A stretch of 32,498 nt of DNA from Candidatus Woesearchaeota archaeon (GTDB lineage: Archaea; Nanobdellota; Nanobdellia; Woesearchaeales; CG1-02-33-12): NCBI GenBank assembly GCA_017610275.1, contig JAFCCI010000004.1, forward strand, positions 1-32,498, read 5' to 3'. Under the pieces are notes generated by a model that saw only the letters and a program-made list of their open reading frames with translations, did not search any database and was not told where the DNA came from. Shown here piece by piece: positions 2,121 to 31,634 of this stretch (within the stretch, counting starts at the first letter, position 1; the number at the start of each line of letters is the position of its first letter). Both the position numbers and the translations under genes were made by a program.

Positions 2121-3752
2121 ATGAATCTTGGAAATATAAGAATAAAGTTCTATATTTATTACATACTTATTTTTTTATTGATTACAATTCCCATATTGGT
2201 TAATCTTAACTGGATAATGGAGGATGAGAGACCAATGAGTCACGAAGATGTACAAATATTAGGTATTTCGTCAAGTTTATATGCAAAAAACCTGAATGCT
2301 TTGAATTTTTGTAAGGAAGTTTTTTCTTTAAAATGTCAGTATCCCCCACTTATTTTATCATTAGTCTATTTATCTTTTAAAGTGTTTGGTCCTTTTGATA
2401 ACAGCGCACTTTATCTTAATCTTTTTTTCTGGCCAGTCTTGGTTTTATCATGCTTTTTTCTTGGAAAAAAGTTTTACAACAAAAAAACAGGACTTCTAGC
2501 TGCTTTTATACTATCAACCCTGCCCCCAATCATAATCTTTTCCTTGCTTTATGGCTTATCTTTTGGTATATGCCTTTTAGCAAGATACACAAGCCTGCCA
2601 TATATAATTGTTCCACCACTTTTCTTTATTTTCTTTAAGAAAAGAGTCATAAAAAAACTTGTTTTAAAAAATTTTGTGGTTTCAATGATTACTGCGTTTA
2701 TAATAACCTTTCCTTGGTATGCTAATAAACTTAATTTTCTTATAAAAATTAATTTAGTGCGATTTGTTAGTAGTACATCAAAAAGTGTGTTAAGCACTAT
2801 TAGTAATATCTTCTTTTATCTAGTATTCTTGATTAATTACCAGTTAGGGTTCCTAAATTTTGTAATCCTTATTCTTGTTGGTATATTTTTTTCTGTTAGA
2901 TATTACAAACAAAGAAGAATTGATGAACGGGATTTGTTATTATTCCTTATTTTTTTAATTCCATACATCTTTTACACTTTTATTCCACTAAAAAATTATT
3001 TAGTGACAACACCCTTTTTAATACCTCTTTCCTTTATTATAGCTAGAGGAATATTAAAATTTCCAAAGACCTTAAAATATGTTTTACTTTTTATTGTAAT
3101 TATTGTGGGATTATTCTACTCTTTACCAATCCAAAGCTTCAACAGAACAATAACAATTGATTTAAGTATTCCATTATGGGTAAAAACAGATTTCTCTAAC
3201 AAAGAAATTATTCAAACAAGTAGAATCAACATTCTTTCAAAAAAAGACATGGATATATCATTGCTTTTTTCAAAAAATTCAAAATTTTATACCTTTAAAG
3301 ACCAACAGCAGATAAAAGATATATCTAAGATTATCTATTCTGTGCTGATTACTAAAAATAAAACAAAAGTAGATGTATTTTTTTTATATAATGATTTTTA
3401 TATTTATCCTTATGTATTAGATTATTATTTAGATCTGGTGAATATATCATCTGAATCTTTTTCCTATTCTTTTAATAATTTTTACAATACACTAAATATT
3501 CCAACAAAAATTATATATCAAAAAAACCAAGAAGACGATTTTGAATGGATATACAATTTTGACTTTCTTATAGTGCCAGAAATGAGTAAGAAGAGTGAAC
3601 CTAATTTTCCTTTTTTTAGTGAAAATTATTATGCAATTTTCTTATACCTTACAAATTCTGAGAGATTTAAAAAAAACTTCAAGTTGATTTATCAAAGCAA
3701 TGTTTCTGATAAAGAAATAGTAGAACTCTATGAGCATAAAAACCTTAACTGA
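2121..3752 (+). CDS. Tandem paralog of the preceding GT-C-like membrane glycosyltransferase
   Basis: 543 aa with the same architecture (MEDERPMSHEDVQ, YPP, FWPVLVLSCFFLGKKFYNKKTGLLAAFILSTLPP). Long near-identical DNA tracts shared with 247-2052. Confidence 0.7.
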   Translation: MNLGNIRIKFYIYYILIFLLITIPILVNLNWIMEDERPMSHEDVQILGISSSLYAKNLNALNFCKEVFSLKCQYPPLILSLVYLSFKVFGPFDNSALYLNLFFWPVLVLSCFFLGKKFYNKKTGLLAAFILSTLPPIIIFSLLYGLSFGICLLARYTSLPYIIVPPLFFIFFKKRVIKKLVLKNFVVSMITAFIITFPWYANKLNFLIKINLVRFVSSTSKSVLSTISNIFFYLVFLINYQLGFLNFVILILVGIFFSVRYYKQRRIDERDLLLFLIFLIPYIFYTFIPLKNYLVTTPFLIPLSFIIARGILKFPKTLKYVLLFIVIIVGLFYSLPIQSFNRTITIDLSIPLWVKTDFSNKEIIQTSRINILSKKDMDISLLFSKNSKFYTFKDQQQIKDISKIIYSVLITKNKTKVDVFFLYNDFYIYPYVLDYYLDLVNISSESFSYSFNNFYNTLNIPTKIIYQKNQEDDFEWIYNFDFLIVPEMSKKSEPNFPFFSENYYAIFLYLTNSERFKKNFKLIYQSNVSDKEIVELYEHKNLN

Positions 3753-4530
3753 TTTCTTCAGACACTTCCAACTGGATATCATCCAATAATAATGTGCATT
3801 CAGAATTCATAGCTATTTCTATTCCAATGGCTATTGTCCCTTCCGGTACGATAGTAATTAATTTTTTTTCAATCCATTTTGTTAAACAATTCATATTATC
3901 TAAAACTTCTAAATCTTTATGCTTTCCATAGTTGTCTAAACTCATAAGAGAAAAACGATGTGCACACCCCTTATACCAATAACTCATTTTTAGTTTAGTT
4001 CCTGGCTTAATCCCCATCCAGATAGAACTTTTATAATCACAAGGTTCATCTAAACTTGTTGATTGAGGTTTTGTATCATAGTAACTCATACAAGGGGGAT
4101 TAGAACAAATTACCTGAAAGCTTTGTGGAGAAGAGTGATACTCTCTTCTATTTAATGTTCTTTTTGATTTAGAGTCCTTATTCTGTTTGCTACCATCAGA
4201 TGTACTCCAATAGTTTATACCTTCAGAGAAATTTGAATTTTCTAAGATATTTTCTCCAGTGAAATGATTTTCAAAATAATTAATTATTTCTAAAATTTCT
4301 TCTTTCTCATTATCTTGCTTCCTATCTTCTGCCTTATCAAAATCAAACTCCCTAAATTTAAAACCTTTATTTGTATATGTATAGATAGAAATAATTATAA
4401 TAAATCCAATCAAAAATATAATAATCAATGTCTTCAAATTAATTTCTTCTTCACATTCATTTTCTTCTTCTTCTTCAAAAAAATCATTAATTTTTTCCTT
4501 TGCTTTTTTTATCAAATTCTTTTTTCTCAT
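3745..4530 (-). CDS. Single-pass membrane protein with an extracytoplasmic beta-sandwich, CBM_4_9-like domain
   Basis: Acidic N-terminal cytoplasmic segment (EEEEENECEEE), one TM helix, then ENSNFSEGINYWS...LLLDDIQLEV, typical of carbohydrate-binding jelly-roll domains. Several Cys in the exported part. Confidence 0.6.
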   Translation of the reverse strand: MRKKNLIKKAKEKINDFFEEEEENECEEEINLKTLIIIFLIGFIIIISIYTYTNKGFKFREFDFDKAEDRKQDNEKEEILEIINYFENHFTGENILENSNFSEGINYWSTSDGSKQNKDSKSKRTLNRREYHSSPQSFQVICSNPPCMSYYDTKPQSTSLDEPCDYKSSIWMGIKPGTKLKMSYWYKGCAHRFSLMSLDNYGKHKDLEVLDNMNCLTKWIEKKLITIVPEGTIAIGIEIAMNSECTLLLDDIQLEVSEEIS

Positions 4531-7586: not shown

Positions 7587-7850
7587 ATGAAGAAAAATTG
7601 CCCTGGAGTGGTTCATGTTGATGGGGTAGCAAGACCTCAGCTGTTAAGCAATGAAGATAATCCAAGCTTTTACAAAATAATTGATGAATACAGAAAACTG
7701 GCAGGAATACCAAGCATCATAAACACAAGCTTTAACATACATAAAGAGCCAATAGTCTGCTCGCCTGCAGACGCTGTAAGGGCATTTAAGATTGGTCATT
7801 TGGATTATTTGGCTATTGGAAACTATATGGCAAAAAATGAAGAAATTTAA
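7587..7850 (+). pseudogene. C-terminal fragment of a NodU/CmcH/TobZ-family carbamoyltransferase
   Basis: PGVVHVDGVARPQLLSNEDNPSFYKIIDEYRKLAGIPSIINTSFNIHKEPIVCSPADAVRAFKIGHLDYLAIGNYM matches the conserved family C-terminus (HVDGTARxQ, LNTSFNxxxEPIVCxPxDA). Only 87 aa remain of a roughly 500-600 aa family. Confidence 0.85.
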
Positions 7851-20971: not shown

Positions 20972-21478
20972 TTAGCTAAGGGGGCTTATCTTTTCTTCTT
21001 CAATGGCATTTTTTGCACATGTAACATGTGAGTCATCAATTTTGATTTTTGGCACAAATTTTAACTTTTTTATACTACCATACTTATTGAAATCATGCTT
21101 AATTTCCTTAATTAGAGGATAACCAATTTTTATTGACGATTGCTTTAATTCCATTATATTTGTATCTTTTTCTCCAATAACCCAAACTATAAGCTGGTCA
21201 ACATCATAACTTCCTGTATTAGCTATTGTGAATTTAACAAAACCATCTGAGCCAGTGCCGCCATAAAATACCTGTGGTATATTATTAACTTTTTCTACCT
21301 TTAGGTTCACATTAGCGCATTTTTCTATGCTTAGCAGCTCTGAACTTGAAGATTCTACATTTTTGCCCCAGCTCATAACAACTGCTCCAAGTGCAACTGC
21401 AAATGCTATTAAAAGAATGGTTGCAATCAAAGGTGAGACACCTTTTTTATTTTTTGTTATTTTATGCATGCTTTTCAT
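20972..21478 (-). CDS. Archaeal type IV pilin/archaellin-like protein with class III signal peptide
   Basis: MKSMHKITKNKKGVSPLIATILLIAFAVALGAVVMSWG: cytoplasmic basic stretch, KKG(V)SP processing context, hydrophobic N-helix. ATG at 21478 preceded by AAGGTG. Confidence 0.85.
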   Translation of the reverse strand: MKSMHKITKNKKGVSPLIATILLIAFAVALGAVVMSWGKNVESSSSELLSIEKCANVNLKVEKVNNIPQVFYGGTGSDGFVKFTIANTGSYDVDQLIVWVIGEKDTNIMELKQSSIKIGYPLIKEIKHDFNKYGSIKKLKFVPKIKIDDSHVTCAKNAIEEEKISPLS

Positions 21479-21495
21479 AAACAACACCTTTTTAT

Positions 21496-29377: not shown

Positions 29378-30706
29378 CTAAGACCTAATTATTTCTAATA
29401 CCTTATCCCGCATTTCTTCCATCTTTTCTTTTGTTCTGGCCTCTAGATTAAGTCTTATTAATGGCTCTGTGTTTGAGGGCCGAACATTGAAATGCCAGTC
29501 ATCATAGTCAACTGATACTCCGTCCATGTGATAGATTTTTCCGTCGCTGAATTCCTGCTCAAGTTTTTTTAGCACAGCTTCTTTATCTTTTACCTTTGAG
29601 TTTATCTCTCCGCTGATGAAATAGTTTTCTGTTGGTTTTAGTATTTCTGAGAAAGGCTTGTTTTTTATGGAAATTAATTCAATCATCTGCAATGCAGGTA
29701 TCATTCCATTATCTGTGTAAAAATCATTATGTTTATAATAATAATGGCCTGTAACCTCACCTGCAAAGATGCCATCTTCTTCTCTCATGTACTGCTTAAA
29801 GAATGAATGGCCAACCCTGCACATCCTTGACCTGCCGTTATTTTCCTCAATCATGTCCTTCACAAACCAGCTTGCTCTCAGGTCATATAGTATCATTGCA
29901 TTTGGATGCTTTTTCAGCATGCTTTCAGCGAAAAGACCTGTTATGAAATCACCCTGTAAAAATTTTCCATTGTTACTAATGAAAAAACACCTGTCTGCAT
30001 CGCCGTCCCATGTTATCCCTAAGTCAGCTTTTTCCTCAATAACCTTTTTCATAATATCCTGCCTGTTTTCTAAAATCAATGGATTGGATTGGTGGTTTGG
30101 AAAAGAGCCGTCAAGCTCAAAATACATTGGAATTATTTCAATATTTGTTTTTTCAAATATTTTTGGCGCTATCATCCCAGCCATTCCATTTGAGGCGTCC
30201 ATAACAACCTTTAATGGCTTTATATTTTTTAAATTAACAAAGCTTAAGACAAAATCAGCATAATCTTCAAGAATATCTTTTTTTATTATCCTGCCTTTTT
30301 CAGCCTGCTTGAAATCATTTTTTTCAACTAATTTTTCTATTTCTTTTATTCCTGTATCCTCGCTTATGGGTATTGCCTTTTCTCTTGTAAATTTAATCCC
30401 ATTCCATTCTTTAGGATTGTGAGATGCAGTTACCATAAGGCCAGAATCAAAGTTATAGTTTGCGACAGCAAAATAAAGCATTGGTGTTGTTGAAAGACCA
30501 ATATCAATAACATCAGCCCCTTGGTCTGTTATTCCATCTGCTAATGCTTTGAACAATGAATCAGAGCTTAACCTCATATCCCTTCCAATAACAACATTTT
30601 TGCACTTTAAGAATTCAACAAGGGCTCTTCCAATTTTGTAAGCTATTTTTTCATTTATCTGTTCAGGATAAATACCCCTTATATCATATGCCTTGAATAT
30701 GCTCAT
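29378..30706 (-). CDS. Phosphomannomutase/phosphoglucomutase
   Basis: MSIFKAYDIRGIYPEQINEK; TASHNPKEWNGIKF; TWDGDADRCFF; RPSNTEPLIRLNLEA. Confidence 0.96.
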   Translation of the reverse strand: MSIFKAYDIRGIYPEQINEKIAYKIGRALVEFLKCKNVVIGRDMRLSSDSLFKALADGITDQGADVIDIGLSTTPMLYFAVANYNFDSGLMVTASHNPKEWNGIKFTREKAIPISEDTGIKEIEKLVEKNDFKQAEKGRIIKKDILEDYADFVLSFVNLKNIKPLKVVMDASNGMAGMIAPKIFEKTNIEIIPMYFELDGSFPNHQSNPLILENRQDIMKKVIEEKADLGITWDGDADRCFFISNNGKFLQGDFITGLFAESMLKKHPNAMILYDLRASWFVKDMIEENNGRSRMCRVGHSFFKQYMREEDGIFAGEVTGHYYYKHNDFYTDNGMIPALQMIELISIKNKPFSEILKPTENYFISGEINSKVKDKEAVLKKLEQEFSDGKIYHMDGVSVDYDDWHFNVRPSNTEPLIRLNLEARTKEKMEEMRDKVLEIIRS

Positions 30707-30735: not shown

Positions 30736-31572
30736 CTATTTTATATCTTTCCATTCTTTTAGAGCTTTTTCATATCTCTCTATGTTTCCTGTGTCAAACC
30801 ACTGTCCGCTGAATGGGTATCCAAAAAGCCTTCCCATGTTTGCTAGTTTTGGAAAAACATCTTTTTCAAGCATTGTAAATCCCCTTGGTATCATATCGAT
30901 GACCTCTGGCTCCATTATGTAAAAACCAGAATTTATGAGTTTAGATGGTGCTTCCTCCTTTTTTGGCTTTTCAACAAATTCAAGAATTTTTGAGCCTGAG
31001 AGTCTTGCAACACCATATTTGCTTGGATCTTCAACAGTGGTTAGTGCAATTGTTACAAGTGCATTGCTTTCTTTATGTAACTGATACATTTCTTCTATAT
31101 TAATGTCTTTTAATTCATCTCCGTTTGAGACAATAAATGTTTCAGTAAGCATATTTTTTCCCAACTTTAATGGACCTGCTGTGCCCAAAGGCTCGTTTTC
31201 CTCTATGTAACTTAGCTTTATTCCAAATTTAATTCCATCAGTGAAATGTTCCTCAATCTTTTCCTTCATATGACCAACGGCCATTATAATATTTCTTATA
31301 TCATACTTCTTGAGCAAGTCAAAGAGATGCTCTGTGAGTGTTTTTCCATGCACAGGTATTAAGGCCTTGGGTATTTCGTATGTTATTGGCCTAAGTCTTG
31401 TTCCCTTTCCTCCTGCAAGTATAACAGCCTTTCTTGGAACATTTGCGCCAAGCGCTTTCATTATAAGAAGCTCTACTGCATGAGACCTGTTTTTAATTTT
31501 AAATCCATTTACTCCAGAATCCACTTTTTTCAGAATATTTGAGTCAAGTGTTAGTGTTACCCTTTCTTTCAT
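30736..31572 (-). CDS. Sugar-phosphate nucleotidyltransferase with N-terminal ribbon-helix-helix domain
   Basis: N-terminal MKERVTLTLDSNILKKVDSGVNGFKIKNRSHAVELLIMKAL (RHH/CopG-like), then AVILAGGKGTRLRPITYEIPKALIPVHGKTLTEHLFDLL. Confidence 0.9.
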   Translation of the reverse strand: MKERVTLTLDSNILKKVDSGVNGFKIKNRSHAVELLIMKALGANVPRKAVILAGGKGTRLRPITYEIPKALIPVHGKTLTEHLFDLLKKYDIRNIIMAVGHMKEKIEEHFTDGIKFGIKLSYIEENEPLGTAGPLKLGKNMLTETFIVSNGDELKDINIEEMYQLHKESNALVTIALTTVEDPSKYGVARLSGSKILEFVEKPKKEEAPSKLINSGFYIMEPEVIDMIPRGFTMLEKDVFPKLANMGRLFGYPFSGQWFDTGNIERYEKALKEWKDIK

Positions 31573-31614
31573 GTTTTTTTCAAAATTAAGGTTATATTTA
31601 AAGCTTTTGTTTTA

Positions 31615-31634
31615 TATGATAAAGTATGATAAGT
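31615..31634. repeat. Tandem direct repeat TATGATAAAG / TATGATAAGT
   Basis: Two adjacent 10-nt units just upstream of the minus-strand BRE/TATA (AAAGCTTTAAATATAA, about 31591-31606) of the RHH-nucleotidyltransferase gene. Confidence 0.6.

Follow-up and report, generated by a model that had tools for sequence, protein, structure and literature searches.

The RHH-NTase fusion of a Candidatus Woesearchaeota archaeon is a protein of 278 amino acids that joins an N-terminal ribbon-helix-helix (RHH) domain to a sugar-1-phosphate nucleotidyltransferase (NTase). From comparative sequence analysis, we consider it probable (roughly 70%) that this protein combines the roles of trigger enzyme and one-component regulator and would autoregulate its own gene and, in many relatives, exert a TrmBL1-like control over gluconeogenesis and glycolysis. 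DNA binding by the fusion protein, its effector, and its regulatory sign are what we infer from these comparisons.

Gene, Locus, and Distribution

The window is the whole stretch of DNA analyzed here, 32,498 nt of the forward strand of contig JAFCCI010000004.1 (GCA_017610275.1, Candidatus Woesearchaeota archaeon, positions 1 to 32,498). The fusion gene lies at positions 30736 to 31572 on the minus strand and is an intact ORF with an ATG start. An earlier sequence-only reading had proposed an RHH domain fused to an NTase at this position, and the fusion is real by its ORF, its domain profiles, and its conservation in 90 of 194 genomes. The phosphohexomutase that was claimed downstream is present as well. 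It is a phosphomannomutase/phosphoglucomutase with Pfam PGM_PMM domains I-IV, encoded at positions 29378 to 30706 (minus strand) as the next gene after a gap of 29 bp. Among the loci of 68 relatives, 45 have a phosphohexomutase gene downstream of the fusion gene on the same strand, 10 have a divergent FBPase gene, and 9 have a GAPDH gene on the opposite strand.

The 194 genomes sampled from the order belong to Woesearchaeota-type DPANN archaea, and each of the 90 that carry the fusion has it as the best match. A survey across archaea had been suggested as a check on the fusion; in the wider genome sample, it is also found in other orders of the same class. Judged by these genomes and by the residues that are invariant in 88 orthologs, the fusion architecture is not a product of chance. 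Searching 84,980 species genomes, with the seed peptides setting the limit of the search, brought up 13 fusions. Of these, 12 come from records labelled DPANN archaea, and the other, which matches a congener, is from a record labelled Methanosarcinales. The two bacterial matches in this search are without an RHH domain. The record named Methanosarcinales archaeon (L035, JAFCBX010000051.1) holds a copy that is 94% identical and has the same coordinates as in the congener G004, and the record is probably misnamed.

Elsewhere in the window, a short ORF at positions 7587 to 7850 resembles the C-terminal end of a carbamoyltransferase and is likely a gene remnant. Two large membrane proteins are encoded in tandem at positions 247 to 2052 and 2121 to 3752, and their near-identical stretches suggest a recent duplication and possible gene conversion. 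A pilin/archaellin-like protein with the N-terminus KKGVSPLIATILLIAFAVALG is encoded at positions 20972 to 21487, within the glycan gene region of the window.

Domain Architecture of the Fusion Protein

The RHH domain spans residues 1-45 (positions 31438 to 31572, minus strand) and is recognized by NikR profile matches, AlphaFold2 helices, and ortholog conservation. Residues 3-41 match the NikR RHH models (NCBIfam E = 6e-4). When the N-termini of 14 orthologs are searched against the PDB as a profile, E. coli NikR is the best match (E = 9e-5); P. horikoshii NikR and a pair of antitoxins follow, at E > 0.01. These matches support the RHH domain that had been placed in the first ~42 residues. 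The Pfam RHH_1 model scores 14.3 bits against a cut-off of 20.5, and the domain would therefore be overlooked by a single-sequence scan. The HMM search that had been proposed for both domains succeeds for NTP_transferase (E = 1.1e-48) and leaves RHH_1 below its cut-off. The AlphaFold2 monomer model (mean pLDDT 87.5) has an extended N-terminus and helices at residues 11-20 and 29-40, followed by the NTase fold. The RHH strand is modeled as coil in the monomer and would pair only in a dimer. For the isolated 46-aa RHH piece, the model is of low confidence, and a fold search gave no significant match.

Residues R3, T5, and T7 of NikR contact bases. Residues R4, T6, and T8 of the fusion protein align with this triad, the strand in E. 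coli NikR being R3-V-T5-I-T7. Among 88 distinct orthologs, R4, T8, D18, R29, and S30 are invariant, and residue 6 is T, S, C, or A. With R4 and T8 present in 88 of 88 orthologs, the polar base-contacting strand residues of the RHH superfamily are kept; their loss in homologs, which the sequence-only reading had named as grounds for abandoning its proposal, is not what the orthologs display. In NikR, the RHH strands insert into the major groove at the half-site (PMC4486848). A Pfam scan of the fusion protein finds NTP_transferase as the sole domain after the RHH; no NikR_C nickel-binding domain follows, and none was found in the genome of the window. The same scan finds no TrmB-type DNA-binding domain, and the enzyme domain that it reports is not the proline dehydrogenase or P5C dehydrogenase of the PutA type.

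The NTase domain spans residues 47-278 (positions 30739 to 31434, minus strand). Residues 48-273 match Pfam NTP_transferase PF00483 with 166 bits against a cut-off of 21. The signature motifs (the GGKGTRLRP loop, PK, NGD, and WFDTG) are present in the window protein and kept in most orthologs, in keeping with the complete NTase that had been claimed. The nearest solved structures are GMPP-beta (7d72) and tlr0611 (8x7s). No equivalog cut-off is reached for the substrate class, and the best matches are GMPP-type. Three fusion orthologs (L095, L096, and L102) have a damaged NTase G-loop and an intact RHH domain.

The Predicted Operator and Its Likely Reader

Alignment of upstream regions reveals a tandem repeat, which in the window reads TTATCATACTTTATCATATAAAAC. 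The predicted operator, TCATACTTTATCATAT, is a tandem direct repeat with a 10-bp period at positions 31614 to 31629 (minus strand), 57 bp upstream of the ATG. A TATA box, TTTAAATA, lies at positions 31595 to 31602 (minus strand), 27 bp past the start of the operator, and is conserved among five congeneric upstream regions. The operator consensus is TCATAC-N4-TCATAC, and most orthologs have it at the same position and with the same sequence. Among 58 distinct ortholog upstream regions, 33 agree with the consensus at 11-12 of its 12 half-site bases and 41 at no fewer than 10, where shuffled sequences lead one to expect ~0.1 and ~1, respectively. The repeat mostly starts at -56 to -60. The 25 regions that score below 11 include some with sites arranged differently and several with none. 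Fusion genes from other orders of the class often have palindromic half-sites (GTATTAC-N3-GTAATAC or GTATGAT-N3-ATCATAC) immediately behind their TATA box, a position that autorepression would predict.

Within the window, a single exact site precedes the fusion gene, and no second exact site was found. The glycan genes of the window were considered as targets and rejected, because they have no further exact site and the one match with one mismatch, at position 4076, is at chance level.

The operator of E. coli NikR is GTATGA-N16-TCATAC (PMC7055735), and its half-site is identical to the TCATAC that is repeated here. In the 194 sampled genomes, the strict form of the site (defined below) occurs in 23 of the 90 with the fusion and in 0 of the 104 without it (p = 4e-9, uncorrected for phylogeny). 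Homologous NTases without an RHH domain have no repeat upstream (0 of 14), and five of these homologs are 64-66% identical. Moreover, the half-site varies with residue 6 of the strand. TCATAC accompanies 57 of 73 orthologs with T6 and 2 of 15 with S6, C6, or A6 (p = 4e-6, uncorrected for phylogeny; 88 orthologs), and TATTAC/GTAATA is found in 10 of the latter 15. Two loci with an R-C-T strand (L020/L021) have TATTAC-N4-TATTAC. One ortholog, L025, has S6 yet TCATAC and is an exception to the pattern. The fusion protein is likely the reader of the TCATAC repeat because of the half-site match, the co-occurrence, the lack of the repeat before RHH-less homologs, the covariation with residue 6, and the altered promoter block of the paralogs described below. 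All of these comparisons are uncorrected for phylogeny.

It is very unlikely that the fusion gene and the sugar genes both answer to a different transcription factor with the TCATAC repeat as its site, the RHH serving oligomerization only. The repeat is assigned to the fusion protein indirectly, and such a factor would account for the co-occurrence if it had the same distribution. Against it stand a half-site that is NikR's own beside a strand triad shared with NikR, half-sites that vary with residue 6 and again in the K4-S6 paralogs, RHH-less homologs without the repeat, and the conserved contact residues. NikR itself was considered as the motif reader and rejected. It is absent from the genome of the window and from 176 of the 194 genomes, and the NikR proteins of three relatives have a different strand, e.g., RKGIAF.

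Predicted Central-Carbon Targets in Relatives

A scan of 353 genomes from the order finds the strict form of the operator, ATCATACNTYATCATAC, at 49 sites, and a reversed control yields 1. The fusion gene accounts for 34 of these sites, and there the site very often falls between the fusion gene and a divergently oriented FBPase gene (GlpX or class I). Nine further sites lie at genes for PGI, enolase, FBP aldolase/phosphatase, GAPDH (three), PFK, transketolase, and GlpX, so that the fusion gene and sugar-metabolism genes together hold 43 of the 49. The remaining six are at an H+-pyrophosphatase gene, an aminotransferase gene, an apparent assembly duplicate, and three unclear genes. Target identities come mostly from NCBIfam; GAPDH was assigned by a family search, and transketolase, H+-pyrophosphatase, and aminotransferase were read from sequence alone. 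The strict operator at locus L268 adjoins the gene that resembles a membrane H+-pyrophosphatase. In two genomes of one genus (L118 and L162), a gene for a RadB-like recombinase has a TCATAC repeat 30 bp ahead of its TATA box.

Slightly looser patterns add sites at the FBP aldolase/phosphatase gene of G112 and the GlpX gene of G098. A looser pattern gives ~50 matches in 53 fusion genomes against 18 in the reversed control. These control matches are too many for the looser pattern to stand by itself, and conclusions therefore rest on the strict pattern. A single genome typically has one or two strict sites, and the regulon is therefore assembled across genomes; PFK and enolase each contribute one site to it. 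In the genome and genus of the window, no convincing second target was found with one mismatch allowed, as most matches fall inside coding regions or beside unrelated genes. The genus does have one promoter-like pair of related sites near small proteins (G004/G005). In the genome of the window (~76% complete), the sole site found is the autoregulatory one, and family searches did not find GAPDH type II or FBP aldolase/phosphatase. The wider regulon therefore applies to relatives.

A narrower reading is that the fusion protein autoregulates its own operon, at most together with the divergent FBPase gene, and that all other sites are chance matches or belong to another regulator. The 34 of 49 strict sites at the fusion gene agree with it, as does the genus of the window, where no other convincing target was found. 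We regard it as unlikely, since nine strict sites at central-carbon genes, for seven enzymes in seven genome families, stand against a control count of 1, and several of them keep a fixed distance to the TATA box.

The broader reading, in which the fusion protein would also control central-carbon genes, draws on this spacing. Genes for GlpX, class I FBPase, the FBP aldolase/phosphatase of G115, the GAPDH of G156 and G070, PGI, and the fusion protein itself have the start of the repeat ~26-30 bp ahead of their TATA box. At the PFK gene of G049 and the enolase gene of G148, which are two examples, the repeat starts ~34-36 bp downstream of the TATA box start. The GAPDH gene of G044 fits this rule less simply, its site lying between the TATA box and a small leader ORF. 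For TrmBL1 of Thermococcales, an upstream site leads to activation and a downstream site to repression (PMC4706686). By analogy with this position rule, the gluconeogenic genes are predicted to be activated and those for PFK and enolase to be repressed.

The sequence-only reading had seen in the fusion a possible metabolite-responsive trigger enzyme that couples nucleotide-sugar supply to the transcription of glycan genes. The trigger-enzyme part gains strong comparative support from the conserved predicted operator, the covariation of operator and RHH, the lack of an operator where the RHH is missing, and the retained contact residues. Its target set changes; sites of the fusion's own subfamily are at its own gene and at genes for FBPase, FBP aldolase/phosphatase, GAPDH, PGI, enolase, and PFK rather than at glycan genes.

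Paralogs with a Degenerate NTase

A paralogous branch of the fusion comprises 13 loci with a K4-S6-T8 strand (L002/L049 on contig 48 of the window's own genome, and L050-L061). The contig 48 paralog keeps the RHH domain and has lost the G-loop, PK, and W-x-D-x-G motifs; its NTP_transferase match is weaker (Pfam E = 5e-19). Most of the K4-S6 paralog genes are preceded by the block TATCTTAC-N4/5-TCCTAC-N4-TGCGAT, and the conserved promoter block of these paralogs is TTTAAATATCTTACCTTTATCCTACTTTATGCGATAAGTTTATATA, with TCTTAC/TCCTAC half-sites. A divergent UDP-sugar dehydrogenase gene is near the paralog in 9 of 13 loci, and in most relatives NTase and epimerase/dehydratase genes are also nearby. 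The degenerate-NTase paralog is probably a pure sensor-regulator. By this gene neighborhood, control of nucleotide-sugar genes, which had been proposed for the fusion, fits the paralog subfamily best. The window's genome has a third RHH copy on contig 6 (L004, positions 1405 to 2253), where the NTase is more decayed (Pfam NTP_transferase E = 0.006) and which adjoins an ATPase gene with a KH-like C-terminus.

The RHH domain is kept where the G-loop is lost or damaged, and the regulatory role therefore appears to outlive catalysis. This is also what would be expected if the fusion regulates transcription with an NTase that is a catalytically silent sensor in its own subfamily too. The paralogs without a G-loop and the three orthologs with a damaged one lend themselves to that explanation, which we nevertheless think improbable, as the signature motifs are kept in the window protein and in most orthologs.

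Proposed Mechanism and Significance

As a trigger enzyme, the fusion protein would act through both domains. The NTase domain would turn a hexose-1-phosphate and an NTP into a nucleotide sugar, or would at least bind that sugar. The RHH would dimerize, and its antiparallel strand (R4, T6, and T8) would enter the major groove of the TCATAC half-sites, so that two RHH dimers would sit on the tandem repeat, one helical turn apart. The bound DNA would contain TCATACTTTATCATAC. The proposal has three steps. Sequence comparison shows that the predicted operator precedes the fusion gene, usually with a phosphohexomutase gene next on the same strand. Its position in relatives shows the repeat upstream of the TATA box at gluconeogenic genes and downstream of it at those for PFK and enolase. 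Lastly, a substrate or product in the NTase site may alter the arrangement or the affinity of the RHH dimers. The NTase pocket would thus be a sensor of hexose-1-phosphate, NTP, or NDP-sugar, and carbon flow might thereby be tied to hexose-phosphate/nucleotide-sugar status.

In open-licence literature, we found no description of an RHH-NTase family, of its operator, or of a sugar-metabolism regulon for these archaea. We hold it about evenly balanced whether RHH-NTase proteins are an undescribed archaeal family that serves many Woesearchaeota-type DPANN archaea as a central-carbon regulator, with the active site as the sensor and with dead-site, re-tuned copies in control of nucleotide-sugar operons. 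If so, one architecture would have given rise to both trigger enzymes and pure regulators. The findings suggest that a sugar-activating enzyme itself turns sugar metabolism on and off in uncultured archaea of a large, symbiont-like group. Active enzymes, damaged enzymes, dead-enzyme paralogs, and RHH-less homologs form a natural series that illustrates a possible path from metabolic enzyme to transcription factor. The RHH strand residues and the DNA half-sites appear to vary in step. The fusion, its predicted operator, the target list, and the predicted regulatory direction can all be tested in vitro without culturing the organism.

Comparison with Known Systems

RHH regulators with sensor domains, such as NikR, and an RHH trigger enzyme, PutA, are already known. 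PutA is a proline catabolic trigger enzyme of bacteria that joins an N-terminal RHH to a metabolic enzyme, regulates its own gene, and is redox-gated. Its RHH-enzyme design is like that of the fusion, and its enzyme and operator are different. NikR is the nearest RHH protein by sequence and shares with the fusion the R-x-T-x-T strand, the NRS turn, and the half-site TCATAC. It differs in having a nickel-binding domain where the fusion has a C-terminal NTase. NikR half-sites are inverted and separated by N16, whereas those of the fusion are in tandem, 10 bp apart, and the predicted targets of the fusion are sugar genes. GMPP-beta and RmlA-type NTases share the fold and the active-site motifs; the coverage of the listed solved relatives excludes the RHH, and the fusion is without an additional C-terminal domain.

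Sugar regulators of the TrmB type have been described for other archaea (PMC10817205, PMC4706686). TrmBL1/Tgr and haloarchaeal TrmB share with the proposed role of the fusion the control of archaeal gluconeogenesis and glycolysis by sugars and the logic of sites upstream or downstream of the TATA box. TrmBL1 is a member of the TrmB family that reads TATCAC-N5-GTGATA and has no homology to RHH-NTase, and the likeness between the two is one of functional analogy.
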